Positions 5,477 to 44,790 of a DNA stretch of 64,000 bases are shown here, one piece after another. Within the stretch, counting starts at the first letter, position 1, and every line of letters begins with the position of its first letter. Location of the stretch: the IMG/VR virus record IMGVR_UViG_3300047318_000482, positions 26,526 to 90,525 of that record; one strand, 5' to 3'. The translations under genes and the position numbers were made by a program. The notes beneath the pieces are model-generated. The model was not told where the DNA came from. It saw only the letters and a list, made by a program, of their open reading frames with translations, and made no database searches. Source of the DNA: a virus.

Positions 5477-6766
5477 TCAAACCTTGGGAATCTTCAGGAG
5501 TGCCCAGGTCTTGGGGCCCGGGTAGCCGTCGGCGTCGTCGCCGGTCCAGCCCTGCGCCTGCTGGAACGCCTGGACGCAGCGGCGGTCCGCGTTGGTCCAG
5601 TCAGGGCCGGGTCCGGTCGTGTAGTACCGGCCGAAGCCGAGGGCGACCAGGCGCCGTCCCAGCGCGGTGATGATCGGGCTGTGGCGGCCGCCGTGAAAGA
5701 AGGCCTTGCCGGGGAACGGCTCGTACACGGGGGCGGGCTTCGGGGCGGGCTTGGGTGCGGGCTTCTTGGGCAGGGAGCCGAGGAGTTTGACGAGGCTGGT
5801 CGCGCCGGGGACGCCGTCTGCGTCCTGGCCTGCGTTGGTGCCCTTGTAGCCGAGGGACTTCTGGAAGTCGGAGAAGTTCTTGGTGTCGGCGTCCGCCCAT
5901 GCCTCGCCCTCGCCGGCCGTGGCGTTCTTCGCGAACCCGGCCTTCGACAGGGCCTTGCGAACCGCGGTGACCTGGGTGCCCTTGGCGCCGTATCCGTACT
6001 CCAGGCCGTTGATGGTGACCTTGTATCGGGCCGGGGTGGAGGCGGTGACGCCGGTGACGGCCGGGTACTTGGGGCGTCCGTAGCCGGCGATGTCGTGGAC
6101 GACGCGCACGCGGCGTGCGCAGACGTTCGCGGAGTTGCCCTCGATCGTGTACACGTACTTGCCGTCGCTGGAGACGCTGGTGACGACACCGACGTGGTCG
6201 ATCGCGCCGATCTCGGAGGAGGCGTCCCAGTCGAAGAAGATGATGTCGCCGCGGCGGATCCCGGACTTGAGGATGCCGTCGGTCATCGGCGTCCACTGCT
6301 TGGCCGCGTTGAACGCGGCGGCGTGGGCGACGGTGTACGCGTAGTCCTTGCCGAGGCAGACCGCCCCGTAGTTGTCGGAGGCGTACGCGCTGACGGTGAC
6401 GGTGGCGTCGCACCAGGCGAAGTTCCCGGCATACGCGGGGCCGTTGCGTTCGCGGTACCAGTCCTGGATGGCGTTGGGCTCGCCGGTGCCGAGCCAGGCT
6501 TCCATCGCCCGGATCATCTTCTCCAGGCCGCCCGTGTTGCCGCCGAGACTGCGCGGGCTGTCACTGTCCGCGGAATCGGGCGACTGGCGCTGGCCGATCG
6601 CCTCGAGCCACGGGGCGCCGTAGACGCCGCGGTCGTCGGCGGGGCCGAACTCGGCCGCCAGGAGTTCTTCTTCGGTCGAGACGGTCGGGCCGTTGCCGGA
6701 CTGCGTGAGCAGCGCGGCCTGCCGGTCCTGACTGATGTCGTCCTCGAGGGGGCGGGTTTCGCCCAT
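5477..6766 (-). CDS. Endolysin: CHAP amidase/peptidase with two peptidoglycan-binding domains
   Basis: The 429-residue protein starts at ATG 6766. After an acidic N-terminal extension (1-75) comes a CHAP cysteine peptidase domain (about 80-235) with likely catalytic Cys119 (FAWCDATV), His191 (IDHVGVV) and Glu209. Two PG_binding_1-type repeats follow (about 250-330 and 355-429), each ending DGxPGxxT near the C-terminus. A Lys-Pro-Ala linker separates them. CHAP enzymes cut the cell-wall peptide or amide bond. No signal peptide is seen, so export depends on the neighbouring holin. Confidence 0.9.
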   Translation of the reverse strand: MGETRPLEDDISQDRQAALLTQSGNGPTVSTEEELLAAEFGPADDRGVYGAPWLEAIGQRQSPDSADSDSPRSLGGNTGGLEKMIRAMEAWLGTGEPNAIQDWYRERNGPAYAGNFAWCDATVTVSAYASDNYGAVCLGKDYAYTVAHAAAFNAAKQWTPMTDGILKSGIRRGDIIFFDWDASSEIGAIDHVGVVTSVSSDGKYVYTIEGNSANVCARRVRVVHDIAGYGRPKYPAVTGVTASTPARYKVTINGLEYGYGAKGTQVTAVRKALSKAGFAKNATAGEGEAWADADTKNFSDFQKSLGYKGTNAGQDADGVPGATSLVKLLGSLPKKPAPKPAPKPAPVYEPFPGKAFFHGGRHSPIITALGRRLVALGFGRYYTTGPGPDWTNADRRCVQAFQQAQGWTGDDADGYPGPKTWALLKIPKV

Positions 6767-12706: not shown

Positions 12707-13638
12707 CGTGGCGCCTCAACGAACTCGATGTCCGCGATCAGGGTGGTGGATCCGTCGACGCCCACCTTGCCCGCGTTGCCGGCGAATCCGGCTGCCTGGA
12801 AGCGCAGGGTCTGGGTGGAGCCGCGGTAGCCGATCGGCAGGGTGATGGTGTCACCGAGGACAACGGTGCCGCGCCGGGTGCCGGAGGCGTTGTCGTCGAG
12901 GTTGACGGCCTGAATGGTGGCCAGCAGTCCGAAGGTGGCGCGCAGGCCGCCGAAGAAGGCGGCGGTGTTGTAGCGGATCTGTCCGACGGCCAGAGAGAGG
13001 ACGGCGGTGGTCGCCCAGTCGGGGATGTCGATGGGCCAGCCTGCGGCGGTGGAGAAGGTCGTCCAGGTGCTGCTGGTGCCGCTGATGTCGGTGGACAGGG
13101 AGGACGGGGACTGGATTTTCAGGGCGCGTTCGCGGCGCGGGTTGGCCACCTTCCGCAGGTCCGTGATCATCCCGCTGGTGATCGTGGACGTGCTCGAGGG
13201 GATGTCGATCCGGGCCAGCGGGATGCCGGTGCGTCCGTCCGGGATCGTCGTCGCGGATGAGGACACGCCGGAGATGACCTGGAAGTAGGCCACGTTCCCG
13301 GTGACCGGGTTCACGCTGCCCTCGTACTCGGGGTCCTCGATCCGCAGGATGACCATGTCGGACCGGGCGCTGCCGCCGGTGGCGCTGATGGGCACGTCGG
13401 TGGTGCCGATGTTGCAGGCCGAGTAGTGGCCCTGGAAGGTGTTGACGCGGCCGCGGATCACGCCGGAGCCGTCCCCGACGGTGACGCCGGCACCCGGGGT
13501 GGTCCGCTGAAGGACTTTCAGGTCGTCGCCCTGGGTGATGCCTTCGGCGCCGGAGGCCAGGTCGCGTACGAGCATGCGGAACTGCTGGGCGGGGTGGGTG
13601 GCCCCGTTGGTGAGGATGGGCCGGGCGAACAGGGTCAT
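12703..13638 (-). CDS. Tail-tip structural protein
   Basis: The 311-residue product starts at ATG 13638, seven bases after GAGGAG. It has a beta-rich N-terminus with an NTFQGHYSACN motif, a central DGRTGIPLARIDIP segment and a C-terminal jelly-roll-like half (from about 165) ending IADIEFVEAPR. Proteins of this shape sit between distal-tail and Gp37-like genes in Streptomyces phages, so a baseplate or fibre role is likely. No enzymatic motif is visible. Confidence 0.65.
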   Translation of the reverse strand: MTLFARPILTNGATHPAQQFRMLVRDLASGAEGITQGDDLKVLQRTTPGAGVTVGDGSGVIRGRVNTFQGHYSACNIGTTDVPISATGGSARSDMVILRIEDPEYEGSVNPVTGNVAYFQVISGVSSSATTIPDGRTGIPLARIDIPSSTSTITSGMITDLRKVANPRRERALKIQSPSSLSTDISGTSSTWTTFSTAAGWPIDIPDWATTAVLSLAVGQIRYNTAAFFGGLRATFGLLATIQAVNLDDNASGTRRGTVVLGDTITLPIGYRGSTQTLRFQAAGFAGNAGKVGVDGSTTLIADIEFVEAPR

Positions 13639-25250: not shown

Positions 25251-26300
25251 TCAGGCCCCGAGGACGGTCGCCGAGATGTGGATGTCCGGTACGTAGAGCA
25301 CCGGCATGCCGATCGCGGCGCCGCGGGTGTAGATCTGGACGGGGTTGTCGTCGACGTGGGTGACGACGACGATTCCGGGGGCCTCTTCGCGGGTGAGGGC
25401 CGGGTTGGTGCCGGAGGTGAACTGGGCTGCCTCGCGGGTGACTCCGAACTGGGTCTGCGCCCATTCGGAGGCGGGAACGTCCGGGATCATGATCCACTTG
25501 TTGTCGGGGATGACCCGCTGGTAGACGTCGTCGTTCCAGACTTGGACGTCGTAGATGACGATCGGCGGGAGGCCGTAGCGGGCGCGGACGGCGTCGACCT
25601 CGAGCGGGGACAGCGTGGTGCCCGGGTTGTTCGCGGCGTTCTGCCCGTAGAACGCGATCTGGTACTCCGCGTTCGCCGCGAGCATCGAGCGGGCGCGGCG
25701 GGAGGTGACGACCTCGCGCGGCGCGGGGGCGCCGGAGTCGATGAGGTAGTCGATCCAGGCCCGCTCGTCCGACAGGGGGGTGGCGGTGGGCTGGTCCCAC
25801 AGAACGGCCGCGGTCGGCATGTTCAGGGCGGGGACGTTCCAGTTGACGTCCAGGCCCAGGCCCGGCAGGGTCACGCTGCCGGTGGCCAGGAGCTGGCCGG
25901 CGGCGAGTTCCTGCGCGGTCTGGATGGACTCCACGTGCCGCTCGACGTCCGAGTACAGGAGGTCGATGTAGGCCTGGGTGTCGGCGCCGCGGCCGACGTC
26001 GAGGAGGATCTGGTCCATTTCGGAGACGGCGAGGGTCTGGCCGAGGGCGGGCAGCATGCCCTCGTTGACGACGCGCTCGGCCTGGCGCTTGGCCATGGCG
26101 GTCGGCGCGTCGTAGGCCCGGAACTTGGCGGCGTTGACGCGGCGCTTCGCGGACGTGGTGCGGAACTTGACGCCCTGGATCTGCGTCTCGGGCAGGACCT
26201 CGCGGGTCAGGCGGTAGTTCGCCGGGGTGTCCATCTGCCGGGCGAAGACCGTCAGGTCGGCGGCGTTGGTGTCGCGCAGAAGGAGCTCAAGGGCTTCCAT
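25251..26300 (-). CDS. Major capsid protein
   Basis: The 349-residue protein follows an AGGAGGAG box. It fits the phage capsid protein E family: an N-terminal arm, YRLTREVLPETQIQGVKFRTTSAKRR, then PTAVLWD- and PLSDERAWIDYLIDSG-type segments, and a C-terminal VVTHVDDNPVQIYTRGAA stretch. It would form the HK97-fold icosahedral shell. It lies directly after the decoration protein gene, which fits the E/D order seen in lambda-like phages. Confidence 0.88.
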   Translation of the reverse strand: MEALELLLRDTNAADLTVFARQMDTPANYRLTREVLPETQIQGVKFRTTSAKRRVNAAKFRAYDAPTAMAKRQAERVVNEGMLPALGQTLAVSEMDQILLDVGRGADTQAYIDLLYSDVERHVESIQTAQELAAGQLLATGSVTLPGLGLDVNWNVPALNMPTAAVLWDQPTATPLSDERAWIDYLIDSGAPAPREVVTSRRARSMLAANAEYQIAFYGQNAANNPGTTLSPLEVDAVRARYGLPPIVIYDVQVWNDDVYQRVIPDNKWIMIPDVPASEWAQTQFGVTREAAQFTSGTNPALTREEAPGIVVVTHVDDNPVQIYTRGAAIGMPVLYVPDIHISATVLGA

Positions 26301-27987: not shown

Positions 27988-29883
27988 TCACTCGGTGTTC
28001 CCCCCGCTCCCCTGCTGCCCCTGCGGGTCCTCCTCCAGGGCCGGGTCCGTGTCGTCCGCGGGGAGGCCGGGCAGGGTGGGTGCGGGCGGTGTCGGGTCGG
28101 GGTTCAGGTCGATGCCGAGGAAGTCCCCGACCGCACCGGTGTCCCCGGTGGCGTCGGCCAGCGCGCGGGCTTTCTCGAACTGCCGGGACTGGATCCGCTC
28201 GATTTCCTCGCCCACGTCTTCGATGGGGAACCCTGCCTCGACCAGCATCTTCATCGCGGTCTCCAGGGAGATGACCTTGTCGACGCTGTTGGTGACCTGC
28301 TCGAGGATGGCGGCCTTGTCGGTGGGCGTGTACGGGCCGAACACCAGCTTCGCGGGCAGCACCTGGACGCCTGCCCAGTCGGGGTGCTGCCCGGCCAGGT
28401 TCAGGCGCTGCACCATCTTCAGGAGCAGCGCGTACTTGTGGTCGCGGGCCAGGCGCATCCCGCCGATGAGGGAGTCGAGTGGGCCGAGGCTGACCTGCAT
28501 CGCGAATCCGGAGGGGACCTTGGACGGGTCGAGGGTGCCCAGGGCGACGGCGGGAAGGCGGGCGACGTTCGCGGCGCGGTCGGCGAGGTCGTGGCGGTGG
28601 TCGCGGAGTTCGCGCAGGGCGGGGCTGGTGTCGACGGTGAACAGCTTGCCGTCCTGGCCGAGTTTGAGGACGGCGCCGGGGCCGATCTGGTACTCGCTGC
28701 GGTCGGTGCCCGCGCCGGCGATGCCGACCATGGGCAGGCCGGTGGTGGCCGATGCGCGCGCGGAGTCGGTGTCCGAGCCCTGGAGTTCGTCGAAGACCTG
28801 CAAGACCTTCGCCAGGGACGACTGGCCCCAGTGCTCCTCGGCCGGCGGCACCGTGTTGGGGACGTGGAGGACCGGAATGAAGTCGAGCATCAGGTCGAGG
28901 TGGTCGAGGACCTCGCCGTCGCCGCGGGTCGCGAACGTTGCCGACCCGAGCGGCAGGGTGTCGACGTCGATGTCGCCCTTGAGGTCGCCGATGTTCCAGG
29001 TGGCGTCGGTGAGGTAGCAGGTGATGCCGGACGGGGCGTCGTTCCACGCGTACTGGCGGGTGATGCCGCCGGTGGCGGGGTCGATGACGTCGCCGCGGCC
29101 GATTGCTGGCACCAGTTCCCCGTCCGGGCCCTCCGCGGTGACAGGAGCGCGGACGGCCCTCTTTCCGGATTCGTCGATGCCGGTGGCGGTGGCCGGGCCG
29201 ATCGGTCCGAGCTCGTAGGTGATGCGCCGCAGCCGGGGCTTCAGGCCGCGCTTGGTGTCCTCGGGTAGCTCCCACGCGAAGTGGATCCGGTCGGGGTACT
29301 CGCCGCCGTCGTCGTCCTCCCCGATGATCGGGAAATAGAAGCCGGGGTCGGTGACCCGGAGGGTGACGCGCTGCTTGCCCGGGTCCCAGGCCAGCCGGTA
29401 CACGCCGTCGCCGAGGGAGACGGCCTTGCGTTCGGCCTGCTGCATCCGCATCGGCAGGAGTTCGGCCTCTGCCCACTCACGCAGCAGGTCCTGGACCTTT
29501 TCGGCGGCCGCAGTCTCCGGATCGGGTTCGCCGTCGCCGTCGCCGTCGTGTTCGGCGCCGGGGACGGCGATGTGCTGCTCGCGGCCCAGGACGTGGGCCA
29601 GGAGCGTGTCGATGAACATGGACGGGTCGCCGAACTCGCGCCGGTCCGCGGCCTCGGGTCCGTCGACAACGGAGGCGATCTCGGCGGCCTGGTTGTTGTC
29701 GTAGGCCGCGAGGAGTTTGTAGGCGGCGAGGCGGCGGGCGTCCTGGTCCGGGACCCACATGGCCTGGGCTTCGGGGAACACGCGCCGGTTCGGCATCCCC
29801 TGGGGGTCGCTGAAGACGGGCTTGTAGTTCAGCCACGACCAGCCGTCAATGATGAGCGCCCTGGTGGTCGCGATGAGGCCCAC
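27988..29883 (-). CDS. Portal protein
   Basis: The 631-residue protein starts at GTG 29883 behind GGAGGG. It has the shape of large siphovirus portals of actinophages: an N-terminal helix, a central wing region with YFPIIGEDDDGGEYPDRIHFAWELP, a helical stem and crown (about 440-560), and an acidic, Pro-rich C-terminus. The dodecameric portal would be the DNA gate for the terminase encoded upstream. Position between terminase and scaffold genes is as expected. Confidence 0.85.
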   Translation of the reverse strand: MGLIATTRALIIDGWSWLNYKPVFSDPQGMPNRRVFPEAQAMWVPDQDARRLAAYKLLAAYDNNQAAEIASVVDGPEAADRREFGDPSMFIDTLLAHVLGREQHIAVPGAEHDGDGDGEPDPETAAAEKVQDLLREWAEAELLPMRMQQAERKAVSLGDGVYRLAWDPGKQRVTLRVTDPGFYFPIIGEDDDGGEYPDRIHFAWELPEDTKRGLKPRLRRITYELGPIGPATATGIDESGKRAVRAPVTAEGPDGELVPAIGRGDVIDPATGGITRQYAWNDAPSGITCYLTDATWNIGDLKGDIDVDTLPLGSATFATRGDGEVLDHLDLMLDFIPVLHVPNTVPPAEEHWGQSSLAKVLQVFDELQGSDTDSARASATTGLPMVGIAGAGTDRSEYQIGPGAVLKLGQDGKLFTVDTSPALRELRDHRHDLADRAANVARLPAVALGTLDPSKVPSGFAMQVSLGPLDSLIGGMRLARDHKYALLLKMVQRLNLAGQHPDWAGVQVLPAKLVFGPYTPTDKAAILEQVTNSVDKVISLETAMKMLVEAGFPIEDVGEEIERIQSRQFEKARALADATGDTGAVGDFLGIDLNPDPTPPAPTLPGLPADDTDPALEEDPQGQQGSGGNTE

Positions 29884-30325: not shown

Positions 30326-31942
30326 TTAGCGGCGGCCGCGGAGGCGCTGGTCGGTGTAGTGCCGGGTGCCGAGGCCTTCCTGGGCGGGGTCGGCGAGCTC
30401 GGTCATCGCATGGACGGCGGCGTCCATGCGGTCGGGTGAGTCCATGCCGGGGATCCAGGTGACCATCTGGCCCTCCAGGCGGGGGAACTCGCCGAGGTGG
30501 TGGACGAGGCCTTGGGCGTAGAGCTGGGCAATCGGCTCGGCGCGCAGGCGTTTGCCCTGCTTGGCGTGCACCTCGATGATCGACGGCATGAGCAGGCCCT
30601 TGGTCTCCCCCTGCTGGGCAAGGGTCTTCCACGCCTGCCGGATGATCTGCTGGGCCATGTCGCCGCCGAAGTTGGCCTCGACGACGATGGCATCGGCCTG
30701 GTACTCGATGGCCAGGCGGCAGGCTTCGATGCCCCAGGTGTCAGCGCCCATGCGGCCGGATGCATCGGCCAGCAGGTACAGGTGTCCTTCGCTGTTGCGT
30801 CCTGCCGCGCACAGGCCGGCTTCGTCGTTGCCGTCGCCTTCACCGCCGGCGTGGTCCACGGCCACGATGGTCCGGGTGAGGTCGATGCCGCGGAATGCCA
30901 TGGGGGTGATGCGGTTATCGGTGATCCACGGCCATTTCCACACGCCGCCCTCAAGCGGGCGCGGTTTCTGCATGTAGAGGGACCACCAGACGCGTTCCCC
31001 AACCGCGCGGCGGATCTTCTCGAGGGCTTTGCTGCCGTAGCGGATGGGCCACAGGGGGCGGCCGATCTCGCGTCCCAGGGCGTCGTCGTCGCTGTCGGCG
31101 ATGGCGGGCAGGTCGAGGATGGTCCAGTCGTCGGCGTCCTCGCCCGCGAGGATGCGTCCGGCGAGGTCCTGTTCGTGCCAGCGGGTCTGGATGACCAGGA
31201 TGCTGCCGCCGGGTTCGATGCGGGTGTTGAGGACGGACGTCCACCAGTCCCACAGGCGGCGCCGCATGGTCGGGGACTCGGCGTCCGCGGCGTCCTTAAT
31301 TGGATCATCGACAACTGCCAGGTGGGCGCCCTTGCCGGTGAGGCCTCCGCCGACGCCGGCGGTGACGAGGCCACCTTCGAGGCGTTCCCCGGTGTCGGGG
31401 TCGGCGAGGTCGAACCGGTTCGCAGCCTTGGAGCCGGAGTGCAGGGCGAGGCCGAGCTGGGGGCCGTAGGAGACGATCGCGTCGCGGATCCACCGGCCGT
31501 GGTCGTCGGCCAGGTCCGCAGAGTATGAGGCGATCATGACGCGGTGGTCGGGGTGTTTCGACAGGTACCACAGGGGCGCCCACCGGGCGGCACGCCGGCT
31601 CTTCCCGTGCCGTGGGGGCATGGTGATGAGGACCTTGCGGGGCCGGCCGCGGGCGATGTCGCGGAACACCTGGTCGATCAGGTCCAGGTGGCGGGCCTGC
31701 TTCTCCTTGCCGTCGGTGAGGATCGCCGACATGGAGCCCGGGGACCGCTTCAGCGCCATGTCCCGTTCGACTCCGGCCAGGACGGTGCGGAGTTCGGGGC
31801 TGGCGTACAGGGCGATGCGGCGGCGCTGGGCACGGTTCAAGCGCCGGTACTGGGCGACGGTCTGGAGGAGTTCCTCCGCCTCGCGGACGATGTCGCTGTC
31901 GTCCTGCCGCGGGTGAGACTCAGGTGTCGCCGCGGTCGTCAT
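30326..31942 (-). CDS. terL: Terminase large subunit
   Basis: The 538-residue protein has an ATPase domain with Walker A PPRHGKS at 109-115 and Walker B HLAVVDDP at 207-214, and a RNase H-type nuclease domain from about 355 with acidic residues AVDHA (363) and VVEAN (422) and a C-terminal PDRMDAAVHA motif. TerL cuts the concatemer and pumps DNA into the prohead. The start ATG overlaps the small-subunit gene by 23 nt. Confidence 0.93.
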   Translation of the reverse strand: MTTAATPESHPRQDDSDIVREAEELLQTVAQYRRLNRAQRRRIALYASPELRTVLAGVERDMALKRSPGSMSAILTDGKEKQARHLDLIDQVFRDIARGRPRKVLITMPPRHGKSRRAARWAPLWYLSKHPDHRVMIASYSADLADDHGRWIRDAIVSYGPQLGLALHSGSKAANRFDLADPDTGERLEGGLVTAGVGGGLTGKGAHLAVVDDPIKDAADAESPTMRRRLWDWWTSVLNTRIEPGGSILVIQTRWHEQDLAGRILAGEDADDWTILDLPAIADSDDDALGREIGRPLWPIRYGSKALEKIRRAVGERVWWSLYMQKPRPLEGGVWKWPWITDNRITPMAFRGIDLTRTIVAVDHAGGEGDGNDEAGLCAAGRNSEGHLYLLADASGRMGADTWGIEACRLAIEYQADAIVVEANFGGDMAQQIIRQAWKTLAQQGETKGLLMPSIIEVHAKQGKRLRAEPIAQLYAQGLVHHLGEFPRLEGQMVTWIPGMDSPDRMDAAVHAMTELADPAQEGLGTRHYTDQRLRGRR

Positions 31943-32582: not shown

Positions 32583-33293
32583 ATGCTGCCCGGCATGAGT
32601 GAGATGCGCAGGGGGTGGGCGGCTGCTGCTGGTGCGGTGGCCGTGGTGGTGTTGGCGGGTTGCGGGGGCGGCTCGGGTTCGGATGTGAAGGCGAGTTCGC
32701 CGACGCCGTCGGTGACGGTGTCGGAGGATCCGGCGACGGAGGTGCCGGAGGAGACGGAGCCGGAGTATCCGCCGGGGCCGGAGGGGGAGATCGACAAGAA
32801 GGCGGATGAGGAAGGCTGGACGTACGACGAGATCTATGACTCGGCGTCGGCGTTCGTGTCGGACATCTGTGAGTCGCTGCCGGATCAGTCGAAGGACTAT
32901 TCGGGGGCGCAGTGGCTGGCTGAGGGCGGCTACCTGAAGGATGACGGCGCATCGATCCTGGATGTGGGGGTGCCGAAGCTGTGCCCGAAGTGGTCGAAGA
33001 CGTTGAAGTCGGCGGAGGCTGGCACGTACGTCCGGTACATCGGGTCTGGAGAGTACGAGGTGAAGGCGCATCCGAAGCCGTACGACCCGGAGTCGGATTC
33101 TGATGTGCAGGAGATCAAGCCCGGTACGTATGTGGCGCGGGGTGAGATCTCGGACTGCTACTGGGAGCGGACGGCGCCGGACGGGACGATCCTCGCGAAC
33201 AATTTTGTGACGCAGGCGCGGGTGATCACGGTGACGCTGCGGGTGGGCGAGTTGTTCAAGAACGACTGCGGGATGTTCAAGCCGGTGGGCTGA
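32583..33293 (+). CDS. Putative secreted lipoprotein (moron candidate)
   Basis: The product has a basic start, a hydrophobic helix and a lipobox LAGC, so it is predicted to be anchored in the membrane after Cys cleavage. An acidic, Pro/Glu-rich linker follows, then a globular C-terminal domain with four Cys including SDCYWERTAPDG and KNDCGMF, a type also seen in host Streptomyces lipoproteins. ATG 32583 has the best upstream GGGGGTGG; ATG 32595 and 32604 are alternatives. It is transcribed against the late genes and has its own terminator. Phage lipoproteins often block superinfection; this is inference. Confidence 0.75.
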   Translation: MLPGMSEMRRGWAAAAGAVAVVVLAGCGGGSGSDVKASSPTPSVTVSEDPATEVPEETEPEYPPGPEGEIDKKADEEGWTYDEIYDSASAFVSDICESLPDQSKDYSGAQWLAEGGYLKDDGASILDVGVPKLCPKWSKTLKSAEAGTYVRYIGSGEYEVKAHPKPYDPESDSDVQEIKPGTYVARGEISDCYWERTAPDGTILANNFVTQARVITVTLRVGELFKNDCGMFKPVG

Positions 33294-33316
33294 CGTAGCG
33301 CCCCGGGATGTGGGAA

Positions 33317-33360
33317 GGCCCCGCTCCGCTCTCCGGGGGACTGGAGTGCGGAGCGGGGCC
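33317..33360 (+). terminator. Terminator of the lipoprotein gene
   Basis: Perfect 13-bp stem GGCCCCGCTCCGC / GCGGAGCGGGGCC (33317-33329 with 33348-33360), 24 bp after the lipoprotein stop codon. No U tract, as is usual in Streptomyces. Confidence 0.75.
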
Positions 33361-33419
33361 GGGTGCTCGTGGCTGCCGGGGGGGGGGTGGCCTCGAGCGG
33401 TGGGGGTGTGGGGTTCACG

Positions 33420-33461
33420 GCCGGCCTCGCCTTGGCGCGGGGACACTAAGACGAGGCCGGC
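33420..33461 (-). terminator. Terminator of the transfer operon
   Basis: A 10-bp inverted repeat GCCGGCCTCG / CGAGGCCGGC (33420-33429 with 33452-33461) lies 60 bp beyond the stop of the leftward TraB-like gene and faces the lipoprotein terminator. Confidence 0.65.
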
Positions 33462-33520
33462 TGTGCACTTCTGATGGTGGTACAGGATCGCGGGTTTGTC
33501 CGAGGCGCCTTCCCCCTCGG

Positions 33521-35788
33521 CTACTCCCCCGTGAGTACGGTGCCCAGCCCGTACTTGCCGCGGACGGCCTGGCCGCTGCCGGGCATGCGGTGGATGCGCT
33601 GGTCCTTGACGAGGCGCGAGAGCCGGTTCTCCAGGGTGGAGTCGGTGAGCTTGGTGAGGGCCTGGATGTCGTCCTTGTGGAGGTAGGTGGTCTCCTCGCC
33701 GAGGGGGTCGGCTGCGTCCTGGAGGGCGGTGAGGATCTTTTCGTCCGCGGTGGGTTCCTTCGGCGGGGCGGGCAGGGCCGTGCCTCCGCCGCCACTCTGG
33801 CCGGCTTCGTCTTCGTCGTCGGGGAGGATCGACGTGCGGCCGATCTCGTGGCGGTTCTCCCATCCGGGCCAGTCCGCCGGGTGCTGGACGGCGTCTTCGT
33901 CGATGTAGGGGGCGGCGGACTCGAGGATGAAGTCGCGCATCATTTCCGCTGCTCCCCCGGGTCCGAGGGTGTAGCCGAGTCCGTAGGTGGATTCGGGGTC
34001 CTGGAGGGCGACGGTCTCGTTGTAGATGAGGGGCCGGCTGACGTCCCAGGCCGGGGGGATCTGGCCGGGGTCGACGCCTTCGAAGCCGGTGGTGACGAGG
34101 TTGGACTGGTCGGAGTCGGTGCGGAGCATGACCAGGGAGCCACCCTGGATGACGTTGGTGCGCAGGGCGGTGGATCCGCCGAGCTTGTCGGCGTTCACGG
34201 CCTGGTTGACGACGGTGAGGATGATGCCGAGAGAGCGGGCCTTCGCGGCCAGCGCCTCCACAATGATCTTTGCTTCCTTGCGGTGCTCGACGAGCTCGGA
34301 CAGGGGGACGTGGGCTTCGTCGAGGATTACGCGCACCCACGGCCGGCCCGGGGTGGGGGTGAAGTTCTTCATCTTCAGCCGGGCGGACTCCTCGATCCGC
34401 CACTGCAGGAGGGCGTAGGCGACGCGCAGGGCGCGCATGCAGCCGTCTTCTCCGAGGCCGGAGTAGCAGGCCATGGTCTCGACGTCGGGGTTGGAGGAGC
34501 CCTTGGGGTCGGCGTAGATGATGGCGTGGCCGTTGACGTGGTCGGCTAGGGCGACGATCTGGATGAGTCCGCCCTTGCCGGATCCGGTGACGCCGGCAAT
34601 GAAGAGGTGCTTGGCGCCCAGCTTGGGGTCGACGAACTGGATGCGGGCGGGGAAGCCGGAGACGTGCTGGCCGATCTGGACGTAGCCGCCGTCGGAGATT
34701 TTCAGGACGTGGGTGCCGGGGAAGGGCACGCCTTGCTTGAGGGGGTTGTGCTTCATGAGGCGGACGGTGCCGCGGCGGGGGTCTCCGGGGACGGGGCTGT
34801 AGGAGCAGAGGAGGGTGTTGGTGCGCAGCGCGCCGGCGAGGGCGGCGCGGTCGGGGACGGGGAGTTTGTCGAGGTTCTCGCCGGCGACGACGTAGGCGAC
34901 TTCGCCTCCGGTGTTGGGGTCGGTCTGGGCGTCTTCGAGGTGGGTGCCGGCCATGACGCCGCCGCTGCGGGCGGCCCACTTGCGCCAGGCGCCCTGGAGG
35001 GTGCTGGTGTCGAGTTCGAGAGGCGGGACCAGGTTGACCGTGAGGTGGCATTCCCCGGCGTGGGCACCGGTTTTGAGGGTGATCCAGTCGGCGGGGATGC
35101 CGTAGAGGCTGGAAATGTTGTCGCGGTTGACGGAGACGGACGCTCCGGTGGGGGCGGTGATGGTGCCTTTCCAGAGGTGGCTTCCGTATCCGGTGACCTG
35201 GAGTTCTTGGCCCTTGTGGCTGCCGGTGTCGCGGTTGGAGACGTACGTGTACCAGCGGTGGGCGATCTGGTCGGCGGGGGTGAGGGGTTCGGGCACGGTC
35301 GGGGCGGCTGCGGGGGCGGTGGGCGCGGTGTGCTTGGGGGCGCGGACCCGGCCGAGGACCTTGCGGAGTTTGATGGGGACGAATCCGACGGCGGCAAACC
35401 AGCCGAGGGAGACGATGCCGGGGATCGGCTTGGCGGCGATGTCGGCCCAGCCGAGCATCAGCGCGTCGGATCCCTCGCCGCCCAGGAGGGCGCCCATGGC
35501 GAGGGCGACGCCGCTGGTGAGGGTGGAGATGGCGAGGGGCACGCTGTGTGCGCGGAGGATGTCCCCGGGCAGGTGCCGCTGTAGGCCCGGTGGGAGCCGG
35601 TTCATGTAGTTCGCGGTGGTGAGGGCGGCGGCGCCGCCGTAGGCGATGGTGGCGAGGAAGGTGGCGCTGGCGTCGAGGAAGGGGATTCCGGCGCCCATGG
35701 CGAGGGGGGCGACGCTGGTGGCGATGGCGATGCCGCGTTCGGTGCTGTGGGCGGCCAGCCGGCTGGTGGTGTTGGTGTTGCTGGTCAT
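33521..35788 (-). CDS. Membrane-anchored FtsK/TraB-like DNA translocase
   Basis: The 755-residue protein has four hydrophobic helices in its first 140 residues, an ATPase domain with Walker A GVTGSGKG (399-406) and Walker B RVILDEAH (486-493), and a winged-helix-like C-terminus (about 690-755). This is the FtsK/SpoIIIE/TraB organisation. In Streptomyces, TraB alone pumps double-stranded plasmid DNA between hyphae after binding a cis-acting repeat locus (family knowledge). FtsK-type segregation functions are possible but the Spd-like neighbours point to transfer. Confidence 0.85.
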   Translation of the reverse strand: MTSNTNTTSRLAAHSTERGIAIATSVAPLAMGAGIPFLDASATFLATIAYGGAAALTTANYMNRLPPGLQRHLPGDILRAHSVPLAISTLTSGVALAMGALLGGEGSDALMLGWADIAAKPIPGIVSLGWFAAVGFVPIKLRKVLGRVRAPKHTAPTAPAAAPTVPEPLTPADQIAHRWYTYVSNRDTGSHKGQELQVTGYGSHLWKGTITAPTGASVSVNRDNISSLYGIPADWITLKTGAHAGECHLTVNLVPPLELDTSTLQGAWRKWAARSGGVMAGTHLEDAQTDPNTGGEVAYVVAGENLDKLPVPDRAALAGALRTNTLLCSYSPVPGDPRRGTVRLMKHNPLKQGVPFPGTHVLKISDGGYVQIGQHVSGFPARIQFVDPKLGAKHLFIAGVTGSGKGGLIQIVALADHVNGHAIIYADPKGSSNPDVETMACYSGLGEDGCMRALRVAYALLQWRIEESARLKMKNFTPTPGRPWVRVILDEAHVPLSELVEHRKEAKIIVEALAAKARSLGIILTVVNQAVNADKLGGSTALRTNVIQGGSLVMLRTDSDQSNLVTTGFEGVDPGQIPPAWDVSRPLIYNETVALQDPESTYGLGYTLGPGGAAEMMRDFILESAAPYIDEDAVQHPADWPGWENRHEIGRTSILPDDEDEAGQSGGGGTALPAPPKEPTADEKILTALQDAADPLGEETTYLHKDDIQALTKLTDSTLENRLSRLVKDQRIHRMPGSGQAVRGKYGLGTVLTGE

Positions 35789-35834
35789 GGCGATCTCCTT
35801 CGCGGGAAAGCAGGTACGGGCGGGCCGGGGTGGG

Positions 35835-36224
35835 TTATTCCTGGGTGAGCCAGTCGTTGTCGACGTCGTGGATGCCGGAGGCCGGGGAGGCGTTCACCTG
35901 TTCGTGGATGCCCTGGTGGGTGGCGACGGTCTCGTCGTGGCCGGCGCGGGCGAGGCGGGTGGTGGTGTCCCCGGCGGACGCGTACTTGATGGCTTGCTCG
36001 GACACCCCGGTCATCAGCTTGGCGAGGTGCTGGCATTCGGCGACGGTCTCGGGGTCGACGCGCTTTGCGCCGATCCCGTCGGCGACCCGGGCGGTGTCGG
36101 TGGCCTCCTGGTCGATGAACTGGGACCAGCCGCGGAGGTTTTCGGCGTCGGAGCCGATCTCCTTGGCGAAGTCGGTGACGTCGCGGACGAACTGCTCGTA
36201 GCGGAGGTCGGCCACCGCAATCAC
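35835..36224 (-). CDS. Small helical protein of the transfer operon
   Basis: The start is GTG 36224 (GTGA overlap with the previous gene), giving 129 residues. It is a mostly helical, Ala/Asp-rich chain with no hydrophobic segment; its length and all-helical prediction resemble small partner proteins that precede TraB-type genes in actinomycete integrative elements. Function is unknown. Confidence 0.65.
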   Translation of the reverse strand: MIAVADLRYEQFVRDVTDFAKEIGSDAENLRGWSQFIDQEATDTARVADGIGAKRVDPETVAECQHLAKLMTGVSEQAIKYASAGDTTTRLARAGHDETVATHQGIHEQVNASPASGIHDVDNDWLTQE

Positions 36225-38050
36225 TTCCTGTACCAGTTGAGTTCGGCGGGCTTGGTCAGGGGGCTGTCGCAGACGGCTTTGTAGATGCCGTCGTAGCGGA
36301 TGCTCACGTTGGTGAGGACGACCTGGGTGCCTTCGGCGGCGCGGACGACCCGCTTGTGGAGTTCCTGCGCTTCGCGGATCTGGATGGTCGCGGCCTCGTG
36401 GAGGCGGGTGAGGACGCCGATGAAGCGGTCGCCGCCTTCGGTCTTGAGGCTCTTGGCCATCTCGACGAACGTGAGGGCCTTCGCGGCCTGCTCCTCGGCG
36501 TGGGCCTGGAGCTGGCGGGTGCCTTCGGCGGCCTTGCCCATGCTGACGGCTTTCTCGCCCATGCGGCGCTCGTACTGCTTGAGGTTGCGGACCTCGCCGC
36601 GGGAGTACATCTGGCCGCCGTCAAGGACCACGTCCTTGTCGGTGACCTCCTTGACGTCGATGGGATGCGGGCCGGACGTCTGCTGGTCGTCGCTGGAGGC
36701 GGTCACGGGCTGGTCCTCCGGGTCTTGGGCGCGCTGCTGCTTGCGGGTGGCGTGGGCCTGGTCGAGGCGGGCCTTTTCACGGTCGGCGGCGTCGTTGATG
36801 TCGCGGTGGCCGTCTTTGAATCCGTCGCGGTAGGCGCGGACGTGGGCGGTGACGTGGGCGGTGCGGGCGCCGTCGCGGTAACCGGCTTCGCGGGAGGGCT
36901 GGGTGCGGATCGGGGTGCCGTCCGCCTTCTTGGGTGCGGTCTTGTCCGGGGTGGTCTTGTCCGGGGTGGTCTTGCCGAGCTTGCCGGGTCCGGTGCTGCC
37001 CTTGGGGGTCTTCTTCAGGCTGGCCTTCGTCCCGCCCACGTTCTCCTTGGGGGCGGTGGCGCTCGCCTGGCCGCCGCCGGTGCTCTTGGCATCGGGCTTC
37101 CGGGGGGTGTCCTTGCCTGCGGGCGCGGCCGCAGCGTCGGTCTTCGCTGCCGGTGCCGGCGTCTTCTTCAGGGAGTGCTTCGGCGTGGCCCCGCTGCCAT
37201 GGGTCTTGCTCTTCTTGTCCTTGGTGAGGCTGATGCCGGAGGAGTCGCCGCAGGTGGCCGTCTCCGTACGCGCGCCCGCGCCGGTTCCGGAGTTGTGCTT
37301 GGCGGGCGTCTTCCCGCCCTTGCCGCTGCCGGAACTGTCGGTACGACCACTCTTGTCCTTCCTCAGCGTCTTCGAGTCGGACTGGTGTCCTCCCGCTCCG
37401 TGACCGGACGTGCCGCTGCCTCCGCGGCCGCCACCGGAGCCGCCAGATCCCGTACCACCGCTTCCCGTTCCGGCCCCTGACCTGGTGCTCTTCGGACCCG
37501 TGCTGCCCTTTCCGCTCCCGGACTTCGAAGAGTTGTTGCGGGAGGGGCCGCTGGAGACGCCGCCACCGGAGTTTTTCGACTTGGAGTCGGTGGATTTACC
37601 GGACGCTGATCCAGAATTCGTGGAGCCGCCCACAAACTTCTCAGACCTGTTGACGGTGCGTGATTCCTTCGTCTGATATGCCTGCGCTTTCGCCTTCTGT
37701 ATGTCGAGGCGCTTGTTGCGGGCCTCACCACCTTTCTTCCACCGTTCAATGGCGGCGAGAGCGAAGGAACGCATGACACCGTTCTGCTGCTTCCCGCCGG
37801 CCTTCGAGCCCGCGTCGCCCTTGCCGTGGATGTCGTCCTGGTAGGTGGCGCTGGATGCACTGGTCAGGGCCTGCCCGTCGGTGTCGGTGGTGGCGGACGG
37901 GTCCAGGTTGAAGGAGGCGGAGGTCGGCCGGGCGGGCTCCAGGGGGGCGAGCAGGCCCAGGATGCCCTTGCCGGTGGCGGTGTCGGGGGTGTCGCTGGAG
38001 GGCTGTCCCGCGGGTACCGGGACGGCTGCCGGAGTGGTGTCGCTGGCCAT
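36221..38050 (-). CDS. Large low-complexity Lys/Gly/Ser-rich transfer-region protein
   Basis: The 609-residue product starts at ATG 38050 behind AAGGAACG. Residues 1-140 are partly ordered; residues about 140-420 are almost wholly Gly, Ser, Lys, Thr and Pro, with KKTP and KTTPD repeats (15-bp direct repeats near 36948-36985); residues about 420-609 form a helical coiled coil. Proteins of this composition occur beside tra/spd genes in Streptomyces elements and are often labelled ATP/GTP-binding, for which I see no motif. A DNA- or wall-binding disordered region is plausible. Confidence 0.7.
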   Translation of the reverse strand: MASDTTPAAVPVPAGQPSSDTPDTATGKGILGLLAPLEPARPTSASFNLDPSATTDTDGQALTSASSATYQDDIHGKGDAGSKAGGKQQNGVMRSFALAAIERWKKGGEARNKRLDIQKAKAQAYQTKESRTVNRSEKFVGGSTNSGSASGKSTDSKSKNSGGGVSSGPSRNNSSKSGSGKGSTGPKSTRSGAGTGSGGTGSGGSGGGRGGSGTSGHGAGGHQSDSKTLRKDKSGRTDSSGSGKGGKTPAKHNSGTGAGARTETATCGDSSGISLTKDKKSKTHGSGATPKHSLKKTPAPAAKTDAAAAPAGKDTPRKPDAKSTGGGQASATAPKENVGGTKASLKKTPKGSTGPGKLGKTTPDKTTPDKTAPKKADGTPIRTQPSREAGYRDGARTAHVTAHVRAYRDGFKDGHRDINDAADREKARLDQAHATRKQQRAQDPEDQPVTASSDDQQTSGPHPIDVKEVTDKDVVLDGGQMYSRGEVRNLKQYERRMGEKAVSMGKAAEGTRQLQAHAEEQAAKALTFVEMAKSLKTEGGDRFIGVLTRLHEAATIQIREAQELHKRVVRAAEGTQVVLTNVSIRYDGIYKAVCDSPLTKPAELNWYRK

Positions 38051-38067
38051 CTCGTTCCTTACTGTGA

Positions 38068-38172
38068 GTAGTTCCTCCCGGACTCCCCCACCCGGAAGAG
38101 TGCGGATCACGTCCGTCCTGGTGGGGGGGGATCTTGCTGTTTTCGCTGCGGAAGGCCTCCGGGAGTAACTAC
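38068..38172. promoter_or_regulatory. Long inverted repeat flanking the tra intergenic gap
   Basis: GTAGTTCCTCCCGG (38068-38081) and CCGGGAGTAACTAC (38159-38172) are inverted 14-mers with one mismatch. The right arm covers the stop codon of the upstream gene, and the left arm is just before the ribosome-binding site of the next. It may be an operator pair for a transfer repressor or a long RNA stem that reduces downstream translation. Confidence 0.45.
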
Positions 38173-38735
38173 GTTGCGTTACTACGGCGGCCGCGCTGGA
38201 CCAGGTAGATGAGGCCGATGACACCCAGGCCGCCGGCCAGGAAGACGCCGTTGTTGATGCCGCCGGAGTGGTCGCTGGACGCCGCTGCGGTCTGCAGGTT
38301 CAGGTCGTCGCCGCTCGTGTACTGGGCCTGGCAGGCCTCCACGATGTCCCGGTAGGACGAGTCCAGGGACTTCCCCACCAGGTCCTTGCTGTTCGCCACA
38401 CAGGCGTCGATCTGCTTCTGCCGGACACTGACCGTGCTCGCCTTGGTCTTGTTGACCTGGCTCTGCAGCTTCAGCTTCTCCAGCTCGAGGAGGTCCTTCT
38501 TGTAGGCGATTTCCTGCGACTTCGCGGCGCTCTCTGCGGCGTCCGCCGAATACGCCTGGTAGCCGACCAGGCCACTCGTGGCGATAGCGGCCGCGCTCAG
38601 GGCCAGAGCGACCTTTCCGCGCGGTGTCAGACCGGCTTTGGTATTTGCCGGGCGGGCGCCGTAGGGCTGGGGGTCGATGGATTCCTGCGGGAATTGCGGG
38701 GCGACGATGCGGTCGAATTCGTCGGGGGCGTTCAC
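38169..38735 (-). CDS. Two-span membrane protein, Spd-like
   Basis: The 188-residue protein has an N-terminal hydrophobic helix at about 42-60, a coiled coil (about 70-110, with YKKDLLELEKLKLQSQ), two cysteines, and a C-terminal membrane helix at 165-180. The topology and the PDEFDRIV-like start are those of small membrane proteins in tra/spd clusters of Streptomyces elements, which are needed for plasmid spread within the mycelium. Identity as a Spd protein is inferred from context. Confidence 0.65.
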   Translation of the reverse strand: MNAPDEFDRIVAPQFPQESIDPQPYGARPANTKAGLTPRGKVALALSAAAIATSGLVGYQAYSADAAESAAKSQEIAYKKDLLELEKLKLQSQVNKTKASTVSVRQKQIDACVANSKDLVGKSLDSSYRDIVEACQAQYTSGDDLNLQTAAASSDHSGGINNGVFLAGGLGVIGLIYLVQRGRRSNAT

Positions 38736-38738
38736 GGG

Positions 38739-39254
38739 TTATTCTCCGTTCTTTCGGGCGGCGTGGGCGGATCGGGTGATGAGGTAGCTGACCTGCGGGA
38801 ATGTGCGGTCGGTGTGGTCGTTCCAGGCGTGGAAGGGTTCGTGGGCGCCGTGTTCGCGGAGCGTCTGCTGCATGTAGTCGACGGCGCGGGCGCGGCTGGT
38901 GGGGGTGACGTGTCCGGTGTGTTCGAGGAGGGTCTGGGCTCCGCGGATGCACATCCGGCCGGTCGGGGAGAAGTCCAGGGTGCGGGCCCAGCCGTAGCGC
39001 TGGAGGACGGCGAGGGTCTGGGCGAGGTGGTCGGAGGGGATGAGCGGGGTCGGGTTCTGCCACAGGCCCCAGGCTTCGGCCGTGTTGCGGATGCTGCGGG
39101 GCACGAGGAGGTGCCAGCGCGTCGGCCAGTCCGGGGCGACCGGCGCCGGCCGGGCCGGGACGGCGGCCGGCCGGGTGGGGGCGGTACGCGCGGGCGCCGC
39201 GGGCGGGGTGGCCGTCCGCGAGGCCTGCGGGCTGCGCGTGGGGGTGGCAGTCAT
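38739..39254 (-). CDS. DUF6197-like protein
   Basis: The 171-residue product has an Ala/Pro-rich N-terminus (1-45) and then a compact domain with GRMCIRGAQTLLEHTGHV and FHAWNDHTDRTFPQVSYLI. This spacing is what I associate with the DUF6197 family in actinobacteria and their mobile elements. Function is unknown. It overlaps the downstream Spd-like gene start by 4 nt. Confidence 0.65.
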   Translation of the reverse strand: MTATPTRSPQASRTATPPAAPARTAPTRPAAVPARPAPVAPDWPTRWHLLVPRSIRNTAEAWGLWQNPTPLIPSDHLAQTLAVLQRYGWARTLDFSPTGRMCIRGAQTLLEHTGHVTPTSRARAVDYMQQTLREHGAHEPFHAWNDHTDRTFPQVSYLITRSAHAARKNGE

Positions 39255-40456
39255 CGGTCCGTGTTTCCCTTCCGGGACTTCTCGAAGGCCTCGTGCATTT
39301 CGTTGTAGAGCTCGCGGAGTGTCTGGTCGGATTCGCCGTATCCGCGGTCACGCCAGGCCTTGATGAAGGACCGCTGGGAGGGCTGTCCGAGGTCGGCGTA
39401 GACGCGGAAGGCGCGGGCCTTGCGCTCGGCGTCGGTTGCTGCGGGGTTCGAACGCGGCTGCGGCTTGTCGTCGTGCGGCTCGTGCGTGTCTTCGGCTCGG
39501 CTGGTGGGTGCGGCTTCGATAGCCGCGCTGGTCAGGAAGCTGAGCGAATCCGGAGAGGCCGCGTCCGTTCCTGCCGTTCCGGTGTTCGACCGCACGCCTC
39601 GCATGAGGGCCACGTCGAAGTGGTCGCCGCCGATCTGCATGCCCTTCTCGTAGGCGATGCGGTCGACGAGGCGGGCTTCCGCCATCTGCCGCTCGAAGCC
39701 TTCGAGGCCGTGGAGGGCGGCGCGGCCGGCCTTTACGAGGGCCTTCTTGTATGTGCCCCGTGTCATGAGGAACGGCTTGCCGACGGAATTCAGGCTGACG
39801 AATTTGTCGGCGGCGTTGCTGCGGGAGATGGCTTCGACGTCGGCGCCGCGGGATCCGATTCCGAGGCGGCTTTCGATCCGGTTCTTCTGGTCGCGCCACA
39901 GTCGGGCGAGGATGCCGTCGGACGTGATCTGGATCTTTCCGAGCTTGGCTTCGAGGCCGAGGAGCTTATGCAGGCCGTAGGCGAGCATCACGGGGCCGAC
40001 GATCCGGACGAGTGCGGTGCCGAGGTCCTCGTGCTCCTGGCGGACGACTTCGATGGCGCCGATCGCCTGGGCGAGGACGAGGACGTAGGCGGTGCGGGTG
40101 GCGCCCTTGTCGTTGAATGCCCAGGCGTACAGGGTCAGTCCGAGGACGATGCCCTCGAGCGTGAGGCCGACGGTGAGGGTCCAGGGGGCTTGCATGTGGA
40201 GTCGCTTCTCGGCGAAGCGGATCGAGGTGTTGGCGGAGAGGCCGAAGCCGAGGAGGACGACGAGGCCCATGCCGGCGAAGCCGGTGATGGTGCGGCGGTT
40301 CTTGCTGGCGTCCGGGGTGCGGTCGGTGGGGTGGGGGCTGCGCTTCTGGGCGATCCGGTAGCCGAGAGTGAGGGTGGTCAGAGCGAGCAGGGGGAGCAGG
40401 ACGGCCCATGCCTGTACGGGCATCTGCTCGACCGCGTTCTGCACTTGGGAAAGCAT
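39251..40456 (-). CDS. Multi-span membrane protein, SpdB/DUF2637-like
   Basis: The 401-residue protein has four to five membrane helices (about 12-33, 58-78, 88-110, 120-140 and 150-165), followed by a soluble helical C-terminal part with a terminal AWRDRGYGESDQTLRELYNEM helix-turn-helix-like segment. This is the organisation of SpdB/DUF2637 proteins that travel with TraB-type genes in Streptomyces plasmids and integrative elements. It is likely a partner in intra-mycelial DNA spread. Confidence 0.65.
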   Translation of the reverse strand: MLSQVQNAVEQMPVQAWAVLLPLLALTTLTLGYRIAQKRSPHPTDRTPDASKNRRTITGFAGMGLVVLLGFGLSANTSIRFAEKRLHMQAPWTLTVGLTLEGIVLGLTLYAWAFNDKGATRTAYVLVLAQAIGAIEVVRQEHEDLGTALVRIVGPVMLAYGLHKLLGLEAKLGKIQITSDGILARLWRDQKNRIESRLGIGSRGADVEAISRSNAADKFVSLNSVGKPFLMTRGTYKKALVKAGRAALHGLEGFERQMAEARLVDRIAYEKGMQIGGDHFDVALMRGVRSNTGTAGTDAASPDSLSFLTSAAIEAAPTSRAEDTHEPHDDKPQPRSNPAATDAERKARAFRVYADLGQPSQRSFIKAWRDRGYGESDQTLRELYNEMHEAFEKSRKGNTDR

Positions 40457-42828: not shown

Positions 42829-44034
42829 ATGACGACCTTCCCGGAGCTGCTTCGCGGACTGCGCATGGAAGCCCGCATGTCGCTGGCTTGCCTGGCGCGG
42901 CAGGTGCACTACGACCGCACGTCTCTGCACCACTTCGAGTCCGGCCGCAGACCAGCGCCACTCGAGGTCGCGGAGCTCGCCGACGAGGCGCTGGCCGCCA
43001 ATGGCCGGCTCGTCGCAGCGTGGACCCGGGAAGACGTAGAGCGGCGGGAGGCTGCCGCCACGCACAGGGTGCGGGCCGCAGCGTTGGCCATGTCGCGGGA
43101 TCTGACCGCCTTGGCGGACCTGGACATCGCGGAGCTGCAGGACGGGGTGGCCGTGACCGCGGTCGACTACCTGGCCTCTCCCCCGGGTCCGATGATGGAC
43201 CGTGCGCACGTGCTGCGCGGCGAGGCGTTCGAGCGGATCCGGTCCGGGCATCACCGGCCGGCTGACCGTTCGGACCTGTACGTCGCTGCCGGACGCCTGT
43301 CCGGGGTGTTGTCGTACGCGCTGCTCGACATGGGCGACTCAGATGAGGCGCTCGAGCACGCCACCGCGGCGGGCCGGTGCGCCGAGTTCGCCGGAGATGC
43401 GGAGCTGTCCGCGTGGGTGGCCGGCACGAAGTCCCTGATCGCCCGCTTCCAGGGCGACTACGGGCGCGCGCTGGACTACGTGCGAGACGGATACCAGTGG
43501 GTCGGGGCCGGGCACGGCACCGGCGAGGCACGCCTTCGGTGCGGTGAGGCCCAGTGCCTCGCCAACTTGGGCGACAGCCGGGCCGCGAACCACGCCCTGG
43601 ACGGCGCCGAAAACGCCCGGGAGCGCATCCGCCGACCGGACACCCTGGAGGGCCTGTTCGGGTTCTCGAGAGCGAAGCAGTCCTACTACGCCGGATCCTC
43701 GCTGATCTGGCTGCAAGGCGGCCACGACGCGGAACGCGCGGCGCGGGAAGCCCTCGAGGCGATCAGCCTGTGGCAGTCCGGTCCGGTGGAGGAGCGGTCG
43801 CTGGACGACGAGCGGCTGGCGTTCATCTACCTGGCCACGGCCCGGGTGCAACTCGACGACGTGGAGGGTGCGGCCGAAGCCCTGGCACCGGTGCTGTCGT
43901 TGCCAGTGGAAGACCAGATTTCGTGGATCGTGAAGCGGATGGACCGGGTGGCGGGAATGCTCAGCGCACCCCGGTACACGGGGAACCGGACTGCGTCCGA
44001 GACTGTCGAGAAGATCAACGCCATCGCGGCGTGA
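42829..44034 (+). CDS. XRE-family regulator with TPR-like sensor domain
   Basis: The 401-residue protein has an XRE helix-turn-helix at residues 4-60 (LRGLRMEARMSLACLARQV and a following RTSLHHFESGRR) and then about 330 residues of paired helices typical of tetratricopeptide repeats. XRE-TPR proteins in Streptomyces and other Gram-positives often read small peptides or partner proteins. Its place at the head of the replication region suggests a lysogeny or copy-number switch. AGAGGAGGAA precedes ATG 42829. Confidence 0.85.
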   Translation: MTTFPELLRGLRMEARMSLACLARQVHYDRTSLHHFESGRRPAPLEVAELADEALAANGRLVAAWTREDVERREAAATHRVRAAALAMSRDLTALADLDIAELQDGVAVTAVDYLASPPGPMMDRAHVLRGEAFERIRSGHHRPADRSDLYVAAGRLSGVLSYALLDMGDSDEALEHATAAGRCAEFAGDAELSAWVAGTKSLIARFQGDYGRALDYVRDGYQWVGAGHGTGEARLRCGEAQCLANLGDSRAANHALDGAENARERIRRPDTLEGLFGFSRAKQSYYAGSSLIWLQGGHDAERAAREALEAISLWQSGPVEERSLDDERLAFIYLATARVQLDDVEGAAEALAPVLSLPVEDQISWIVKRMDRVAGMLSAPRYTGNRTASETVEKINAIAA

Positions 44035-44709: not shown

Positions 44710-44790
44710 ATGCTGAGGGTACCCGTACCACCCAGTCTGTCGACAAGTAGCCCCCACATGATCCTCCGCACGGCGGAGGCCAGGGGATGA
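44710..44790 (+). CDS. 26-aa leader peptide with hairpin sequestering the initiator RBS
   Basis: ATG 44710 follows AAAGGGAGCC and encodes a 26-residue peptide that ends MILRTAEARG and overlaps the initiator start as ATGA. Within it CCTCCGC (44763-44769) pairs with GCGGAGG (44773-44779) over a 3-base loop. The GGAGG of the right arm (44775-44779) is the initiator's Shine-Dalgarno, seven bases before its ATG. Ribosomes on the leader would open the hairpin. This is a translational switch by sequence; its role in copy control is inferred. Confidence 0.7.
   Translation: MLRVPVPPSLSTSSPHMILRTAEARG

Follow-up and report, generated by a model that had tools for sequence, protein, structure and literature searches.

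The DNA examined here, called the window below, is a 64-kb stretch (bases 26,526–90,525; GC 69%) of the 90,525-bp virus record IMGVR_UViG_3300047318_000482. The region at window positions 33,521–40,456 belongs, with good probability, to a pZL12-like phage-plasmid of Streptomyces and is its transfer cassette, whose TraB-like motor would probably provide contact-dependent transfer in addition to spread by virions. A TraB-type module for double-stranded DNA transfer in this phage-plasmid was well supported by family profiles, by the predicted fold, by linear plasmids of non-phage type that carry the same genes, and by canonical TraA and TraB occupying the same slot in relatives.

A nucleotide search with the window led to Streptomyces phage ZL12, which is plasmid pZL12 in its phage form (GQ919031, 90,435 bp). 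Terminase, portal, major head protein, tape measure, minor tail and endolysin genes were all found on the record, which also encodes ParA, ParB, DnaB and a tyrosine integrase. Judged by this gene content, the Streptomyces-type element is not merely a phage but a phage-plasmid of the same kind as pZL12. The first-pass annotation, made from the letters of the window alone, had described a complete siphovirus genome with head, tail and lysis genes; the gene set was recovered, but the window itself covers only 64 kb of the record. The open reading frames listed in that annotation were all present, with third-codon-position GC content (GC3) of coding type.

The translocase gene of the region had been assigned to a membrane-anchored motor of the FtsK/TraB type, and this assignment held. 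The 755-aa product carries a Walker A motif (GVTGSGKGG, residues 399–407) and a Walker B motif (VILDEAH, approximately 487–493), the core residues of which were invariant across 23 homologues, including those on non-phage plasmids. Hydrophobic segments were predicted at residues 20–38, 83–103 and 121–139. An AlphaFold2 (AF2) model of residues 160–755, built from 43 diverse homologues, reached a pLDDT of 87, and its motor domain matched FtsK (Z 25), TcpA of pCW3 (24) and EccC (22), followed by weaker matches to HerA (18), VirB4 (17.6) and TrwB (14.4). The C-terminal ~70 residues (~681–748) were predicted with good confidence as helix-helix-helix-strand-strand, the order of a winged helix, and weak HTH_Crp_2 and Z-alpha matches were obtained in relatives.

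Family searches placed the motor nearest to plasmid TraB. No Pfam match was found for the translocase even at E 1, so that a plain FtsK_SpoIIIE call is impossible from Pfam, and searches of PDB by sequence gave nothing meaningful with the single sequence and only weak FtsK matches with a profile. In NCBIfam, the best family was plasmid_TraB (NF041214; E 7.4e-8 over 307 residues, 280–586), which was also matched by 20 of the 23 homologues scanned (best E 2e-9). The comparison of TraB with FtsK by hidden Markov models (HMMs), proposed in the first-pass annotation, was run with hhalign in local mode against families collected in this analysis. It yielded E 3.5e-6 over 256 columns for TraB and 4e-5 over 162 columns for chromosomal FtsK, with 1.9e-5 between TraB and FtsK themselves. 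Taken with the fold, these values indicate a motor of the double-stranded DNA type with a predicted membrane anchor.

Many relatives are named in RefSeq as "type IV secretory system conjugative DNA transfer family protein", and weak TraD matches were obtained, as would suit a coupling protein of a relaxase-dependent system for single-stranded DNA transfer. However, the NCBIfam matches to coupling proteins (TraD) spanned only ~40 residues around Walker A, and the HMM comparison with TraG/TraD-type proteins gave E 7.5e-3 over 50 columns at 5% probability, far behind TraB. The fold points the same way (TrwB Z 14 versus FtsK 25). No relaxase family turned up when 76 proteins predicted across the entire 90-kb element were scanned with Pfam, in line with the earlier remark that none was visible. 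A coupling-protein role is thus regarded as very improbable.

The position of the cassette became evident from the comparison with pZL12. Over most of 5.1–33.2 kb, the head-tail-terminase region, the two elements are collinear at 66–76% DNA identity. Past 33,236 no similarity is left until 39,244, where the alignment picks up again at 80% identity across the 401-aa gene. In pZL12, the space between these flanks is taken by pZL12.70c–72c, including an FtsK-type protein with relatives on other plasmids such as the linear pFRL3. No tblastn match was found between these genes and the window translocase with its four accompanying genes, and hhalign gave 2%.

The same slot was surveyed in 34 Streptomyces or Kitasatospora replicons with terminases at about 59% identity or above; types were read from tblastn tables and annotated stretches rather than from full re-annotation of each record. 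An ATPase of the FtsK/TraB type was carried by 33 of the 34, usually adjoining the terminase. The window type accounted for 19 replicons, the pZL12 type for three, and canonical TraB for two, pCQ3 and pCQ4, in which TraA and TraB are annotated in the slot. A further type, shared by CP109520 and CP109240, was present in five, plus CP054917 with its ATPase ~13 kb away. Two replicons, from S. seoulensis and S. pseudovenezuelae, held a type distantly related to that of the window, and CP042280 held one more. A Kitasatospora replicon had no translocase in the slot, which indicates that the phage part can exist without the cassette. By these alignments and annotations, sister phage-plasmids have other transfer cassettes, canonical traA/traB among them, in place of the whole cassette at this position.

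The gene set was also found apart from phages. The four neighbours of the translocase (the 129-aa, long disordered, 188-aa and DUF6197 genes) travel with it, also onto linear Streptomyces plasmids. The full set of five is present in S. zaomyceticus NBC_01228 and S. vietnamensis pSVL1, and only the core in S. virginiae NBC_00131. Within the 12–15 kb flanking the cassette on these three plasmids, no terminase, portal or capsid gene was found; the set thus lives independently of phages. Some 50 loci in IMG/VR have the 129-aa gene and the long disordered gene ahead of the translocase as far as the contigs reach, mostly along with the 188-aa and DUF6197 genes, and at most of them the terminase follows within ~1–5 kb.

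Several observations weigh against a transfer function. With 31.3 bits against an equivalog cut-off of 800, the translocase lies far below the threshold for TraB; it therefore represents a separate, TraB-like sister family, and of the earlier TraB identification only the nearest relationship stands, not full membership. The score of the motor against TraB is only slightly better than that against chromosomal FtsK. Searches of the operon membrane proteins in Pfam and NCBIfam gave no Spd family match, so the earlier label "Spd-like" for the proteins at 38,169–38,735 and 39,251–40,456 describes shape and hydropathy and is not supported as a statement of homology. MOB-suite labelled the relatives inspected, and most relatives altogether, as non-mobilizable. 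TraB proteins recognize a repeated 8-bp motif (clt) through the C-terminal winged helix; no cluster of at least four 8-mers was found in noncoding DNA near the operon. FtsK/SpoIIIE-like genes also occur in lytic Bacillus phages (~70 records) and in Streptomyces phage Gilgamesh, for which conjugation is not known. Finally, that pZL12.71c–73c are the tra genes required experimentally is something that we infer.

Some of these points, together with the FtsK-like fold and the location beside the terminase genes, would suit a translocase serving the phage or the replicon, by handling phage DNA at the membrane, by clearing plasmids from septa during sporulation, or by resolving multimers as FtsK does. 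Yet a separate large terminase subunit (TerL) motor is present, the cassette is swapped as a unit with canonical traA/traB in its place in pCQ3 and pCQ4, linear plasmids without neighbouring phage genes carry the same cassette, and the Kitasatospora relative does without it. Nor did the related phages show an FtsK orthologue lacking Tra-type neighbours, the outcome named in advance as speaking against TraB. Such a service role is considered unlikely, although less so than a coupling protein.

Whether the cassette might have been picked up from conjugative plasmids and persist as a neutral or decaying passenger was weighed by the ratio of nonsynonymous to synonymous substitutions (dN/dS). Simple Nei-Gojobori estimates, rough owing to the high GC content, were 0.39–0.46 for the translocase against close relatives and 0.7–0.8 against distant ones, compared with 0.15 for the terminase. 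The rise with distance and the failure to find a clt near the operon would fit a passenger. Against it stand the value of ~0.4 between close relatives, the open frames, the Walker motifs kept in all homologues, and the retention of an ATPase of the superfamily in nearly all related replicons. These sequence comparisons indicate that the gene is under constraint, and there is little reason to expect a passenger.

The transfer cassette and the small-terminase candidate are separated by a conserved, structured element. It comprises, in this order, GGGG, CTCRGACAAAC, CATCA and a long stem of variable sequence with a nearly fixed apical GYGUCCCCGCGC; the upstream GGGG could pair with the CCCC of the loop. 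The numbers of paired cells and the covariation score exceeded those of all 500 shuffles and all slid controls, although these base-pair counts are suggestive and do not amount to a probability because the aligned rows are related. Base pairs were counted with a structure named by hand; RNAalifold on a MAFFT alignment missed the long stem because loop lengths vary.

Further copies were located at L002 17644–17760, L064 (pCQ3) 12542–12653 and L172 13481–13591. In pZL12, whose virion DNA reportedly has a hot end, the element maps to about 57.6–57.8 kb. On phage-plasmids, the element was found with every transfer type inspected (E 1e-7 to 1e-18), usually once per replicon and twice at a few loci, and it occurred in none of the linear plasmids with a window-type translocase. 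It therefore belongs to the phage-plasmid side and not to the translocase. A role as the clt of this translocase was rejected for the same distribution: it is common to phage-plasmids with unrelated translocases and missing from linear plasmids with the same one. Rfam does not contain the element, the only hits there being weak, sub-threshold microRNA matches at a neighbouring hairpin. It is possibly a packaging site, a late-operon leader or a switch. In the Kitasatospora replicon, the element and the slot translocase are both absent, which may link the element to transfer.

By analogy with TraB, the motor would sit at contacts between hyphae, use its C-terminal winged helix to bind the circular plasmid, and pump double-stranded DNA into the recipient hypha without a relaxase. 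The accompanying membrane proteins may help contact or intramycelial spread, and the 401-aa protein could be an accessory factor that different types of motor have in common. We infer in this way every step beyond a membrane-anchored, double-stranded-DNA-type motor in a mobile cassette. With a transfer cassette and phage genes on one element, two exits probably exist, from hypha to hypha in the plasmid state and as virions after induction. A broader proposal is doubtful: that a whole family of phage-plasmids has one fixed slot in which conjugation cassettes for double-stranded DNA can be exchanged, that the boundary element (as pac site or late-operon leader RNA) decides between packaging and transfer, and that dual dispersal is general among these elements and escapes relaxase typing.

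The features of the window are collected in Table 1. Two entries differ from the first-pass annotation. The very long disordered Lys/Gly/Ser protein is present, but the pSAM1 homologue begins at residue 59, so its start is probably 38,050 (609 aa) and not the listed 38,224. The lipoprotein gene does lie beside the cassette, but it is read from the plus strand, towards the translocase gene, and sits between that gene and the small-terminase candidate. The DUF6197-like protein was confirmed by Pfam. On a linear plasmid of 18 kb, a distant homologue of the 401-aa protein adjoins a DUF87 ATPase; a relationship of the 401-aa protein to DUF2637 was rejected (hhalign 0.3%). At the position of the HTH_31/TPR regulator, several relatives carry a GntR regulator.

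Table 1. Features of the window, with coordinates, strand and basis or context.
Feature	Position	Strand	Basis or context
Endolysin	5477..6766	-	gene found on the record
Tail tape measure protein, 1756 aa	14539..19809	-	gene found on the record
Major head protein	25251..26300	-	gene found on the record
Portal protein	27988..29883	-	gene found on the record
Terminase large subunit	30326..31942	-	E 2.9e-102
Small terminase candidate, 183 aa	31920..32471	-	homologues upstream of TerL in relatives
Lipoprotein	32595..33293	+	convergent with translocase gene; homologues in pZL12, pCQ3 and others
Exchanged transfer cassette, ~6 kb	33236..39244		flanks collinear with pZL12; interval itself without nucleotide similarity to it
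Conserved structured boundary element, ~100 nt	33417..33516	-	right after translocase stop, at cassette/small-terminase boundary; noncoding; one copy
TraB-like FtsK-family translocase, 755 aa	33521..35788	-	N-terminal hydrophobic helices, RecA-type motor, predicted C-terminal winged helix
129-aa protein	35835..36224	-	immediately precedes translocases of this type, both on phage-plasmids and on linear plasmids
Long low-complexity Lys/Gly/Ser protein, ~609 aa	36221..38050	-	C-terminal part conserved; start set by homology
188-aa membrane protein, module gene	38169..38735	-	hydropathy; no Spd family match
DUF6197 protein, module gene	38739..39254	-	Pfam E 8e-18
401-aa membrane protein	39251..40456	-	homologue of pZL12.73c (74%); right flank of exchanged cassette
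HTH_31/TPR regulator	42829..44034	+	divergent from transfer operon

Among the other products of the element are two WhiB-type regulators, a C5 cytosine methylase and a NERD-domain protein. At 45,265–45,345, inside the reading frame 44,787–46,049 and directly upstream of a DnaB-type helicase gene, lie four CCCC-AAACGGGG repeats of ~24 bp; these are likely replication iterons within an initiator gene. About ten 30-bp repeats were seen in the tail region (9,991–10,283) within the reading frame 8,007–12,719, and, as a separate observation, a Pfam collagen-repeat match occurred among the scanned proteins of the element; this frame is possibly a collagen-like tail fibre candidate.

Among the relatives, an HNH endonuclease is annotated inside or across the terminase gene in pCQ3 (L064 14792–15679), S. 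seoulensis (L173 1042–1767) and S. janthinus (H65), and a LAGLIDADG enzyme is annotated likewise in S. anulatus CP109524. These are probably inteins or introns in TerL. Genes for type III polyketide synthases (RppA or PhlD type) recur, in pZL12 (79,644–80,987), pSLE1 and L174 (4384–5433).

Dual spread by virion and conjugation is not new in kind, being known for pZL12. Conjugation genes and a plasmid/lytic phage cycle have been reported for it, according to PMC3583192 and to a title cited in PMC4487206, that of a 2010 paper covering replication, transfer and the plasmid/lytic phage cycle. PMC4487206 describes pSLE1 as syntenic with pZL12, which has elsewhere been called a singleton (PMC7157519). 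For pSAM1, carried by S. ambofaciens ATCC 23877, a predicted prophage was noted, with transcription in HT medium and almost no virion reads in BM medium (PMC11302927). Phage-plasmids have usually been treated as moving horizontally only as virions, with conjugal mobility arising only after the loss of phage genes (PMC10879196).

New here are the separate TraB-like family, the exchange of cassettes at a fixed slot and the conserved boundary element; a literature search of partial coverage found no account of exchange at this slot or of the boundary element. More than 30 complete relatives were found; almost all of them carry a transfer-type, relaxase-free ATPase, in exchangeable cassettes that also occur on ordinary plasmids, and relaxase-based typing calls most of these elements non-mobilizable. 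If the proposal is true, these would be Streptomyces DNA carriers able to choose between contact spread through the mycelium and particle release.

When compared with known systems, pZL12 is the nearest. It has the same genome size and plan, an FtsK-type gene in the same slot, and homologues of the 401-aa protein, lipoprotein, terminase and boundary element. It differs in its own cassette, pZL12.70c–72c, which cannot be aligned with the window translocase and its four companions. The circular phage-plasmids pSAM1 and pSLE1 (86–90 kb) carry the same cassette adjoining the terminase, with translocases 66.5% and 46% identical to that of the window, but no homologue of the 401-aa protein was detected in them.

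The translocases of S. zaomyceticus NBC_01228, S. vietnamensis pSVL1 and S. virginiae NBC_00131 are 63%, 44% and 46% identical, respectively. All three plasmids share the 129-aa and long disordered genes, while the 188-aa and DUF6197 genes are confined to the first two. In contrast to the window element, these plasmids are linear and have neither phage structural genes nor the boundary element in the flanks.

TcpA of the Clostridium plasmid pCW3, a conjugation motor proposed to move double-stranded DNA (PMC12857230), comes nearly as close as FtsK in predicted fold; however, it belongs to a full type IV system, and no sequence relation to the window translocase was found. TraB of Streptomyces plasmids moves unprocessed double-stranded DNA, and spd-type partners aid its mycelial spread (PMC12857230; PMC3583192). 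The canonical protein (NF041214; pIJ101, pCQ3 and pCQ4, and pSVH1 in the literature) differs from the window translocase in its accompanying genes, in the profile score and in the clt repeats, none of which were found here near the operon. Both have an FtsK-type motor, and the membrane helices and C-terminal winged helix of TraB have predicted counterparts in the window protein; both stand in a plasmid operon context, with no relaxase found on the window element.

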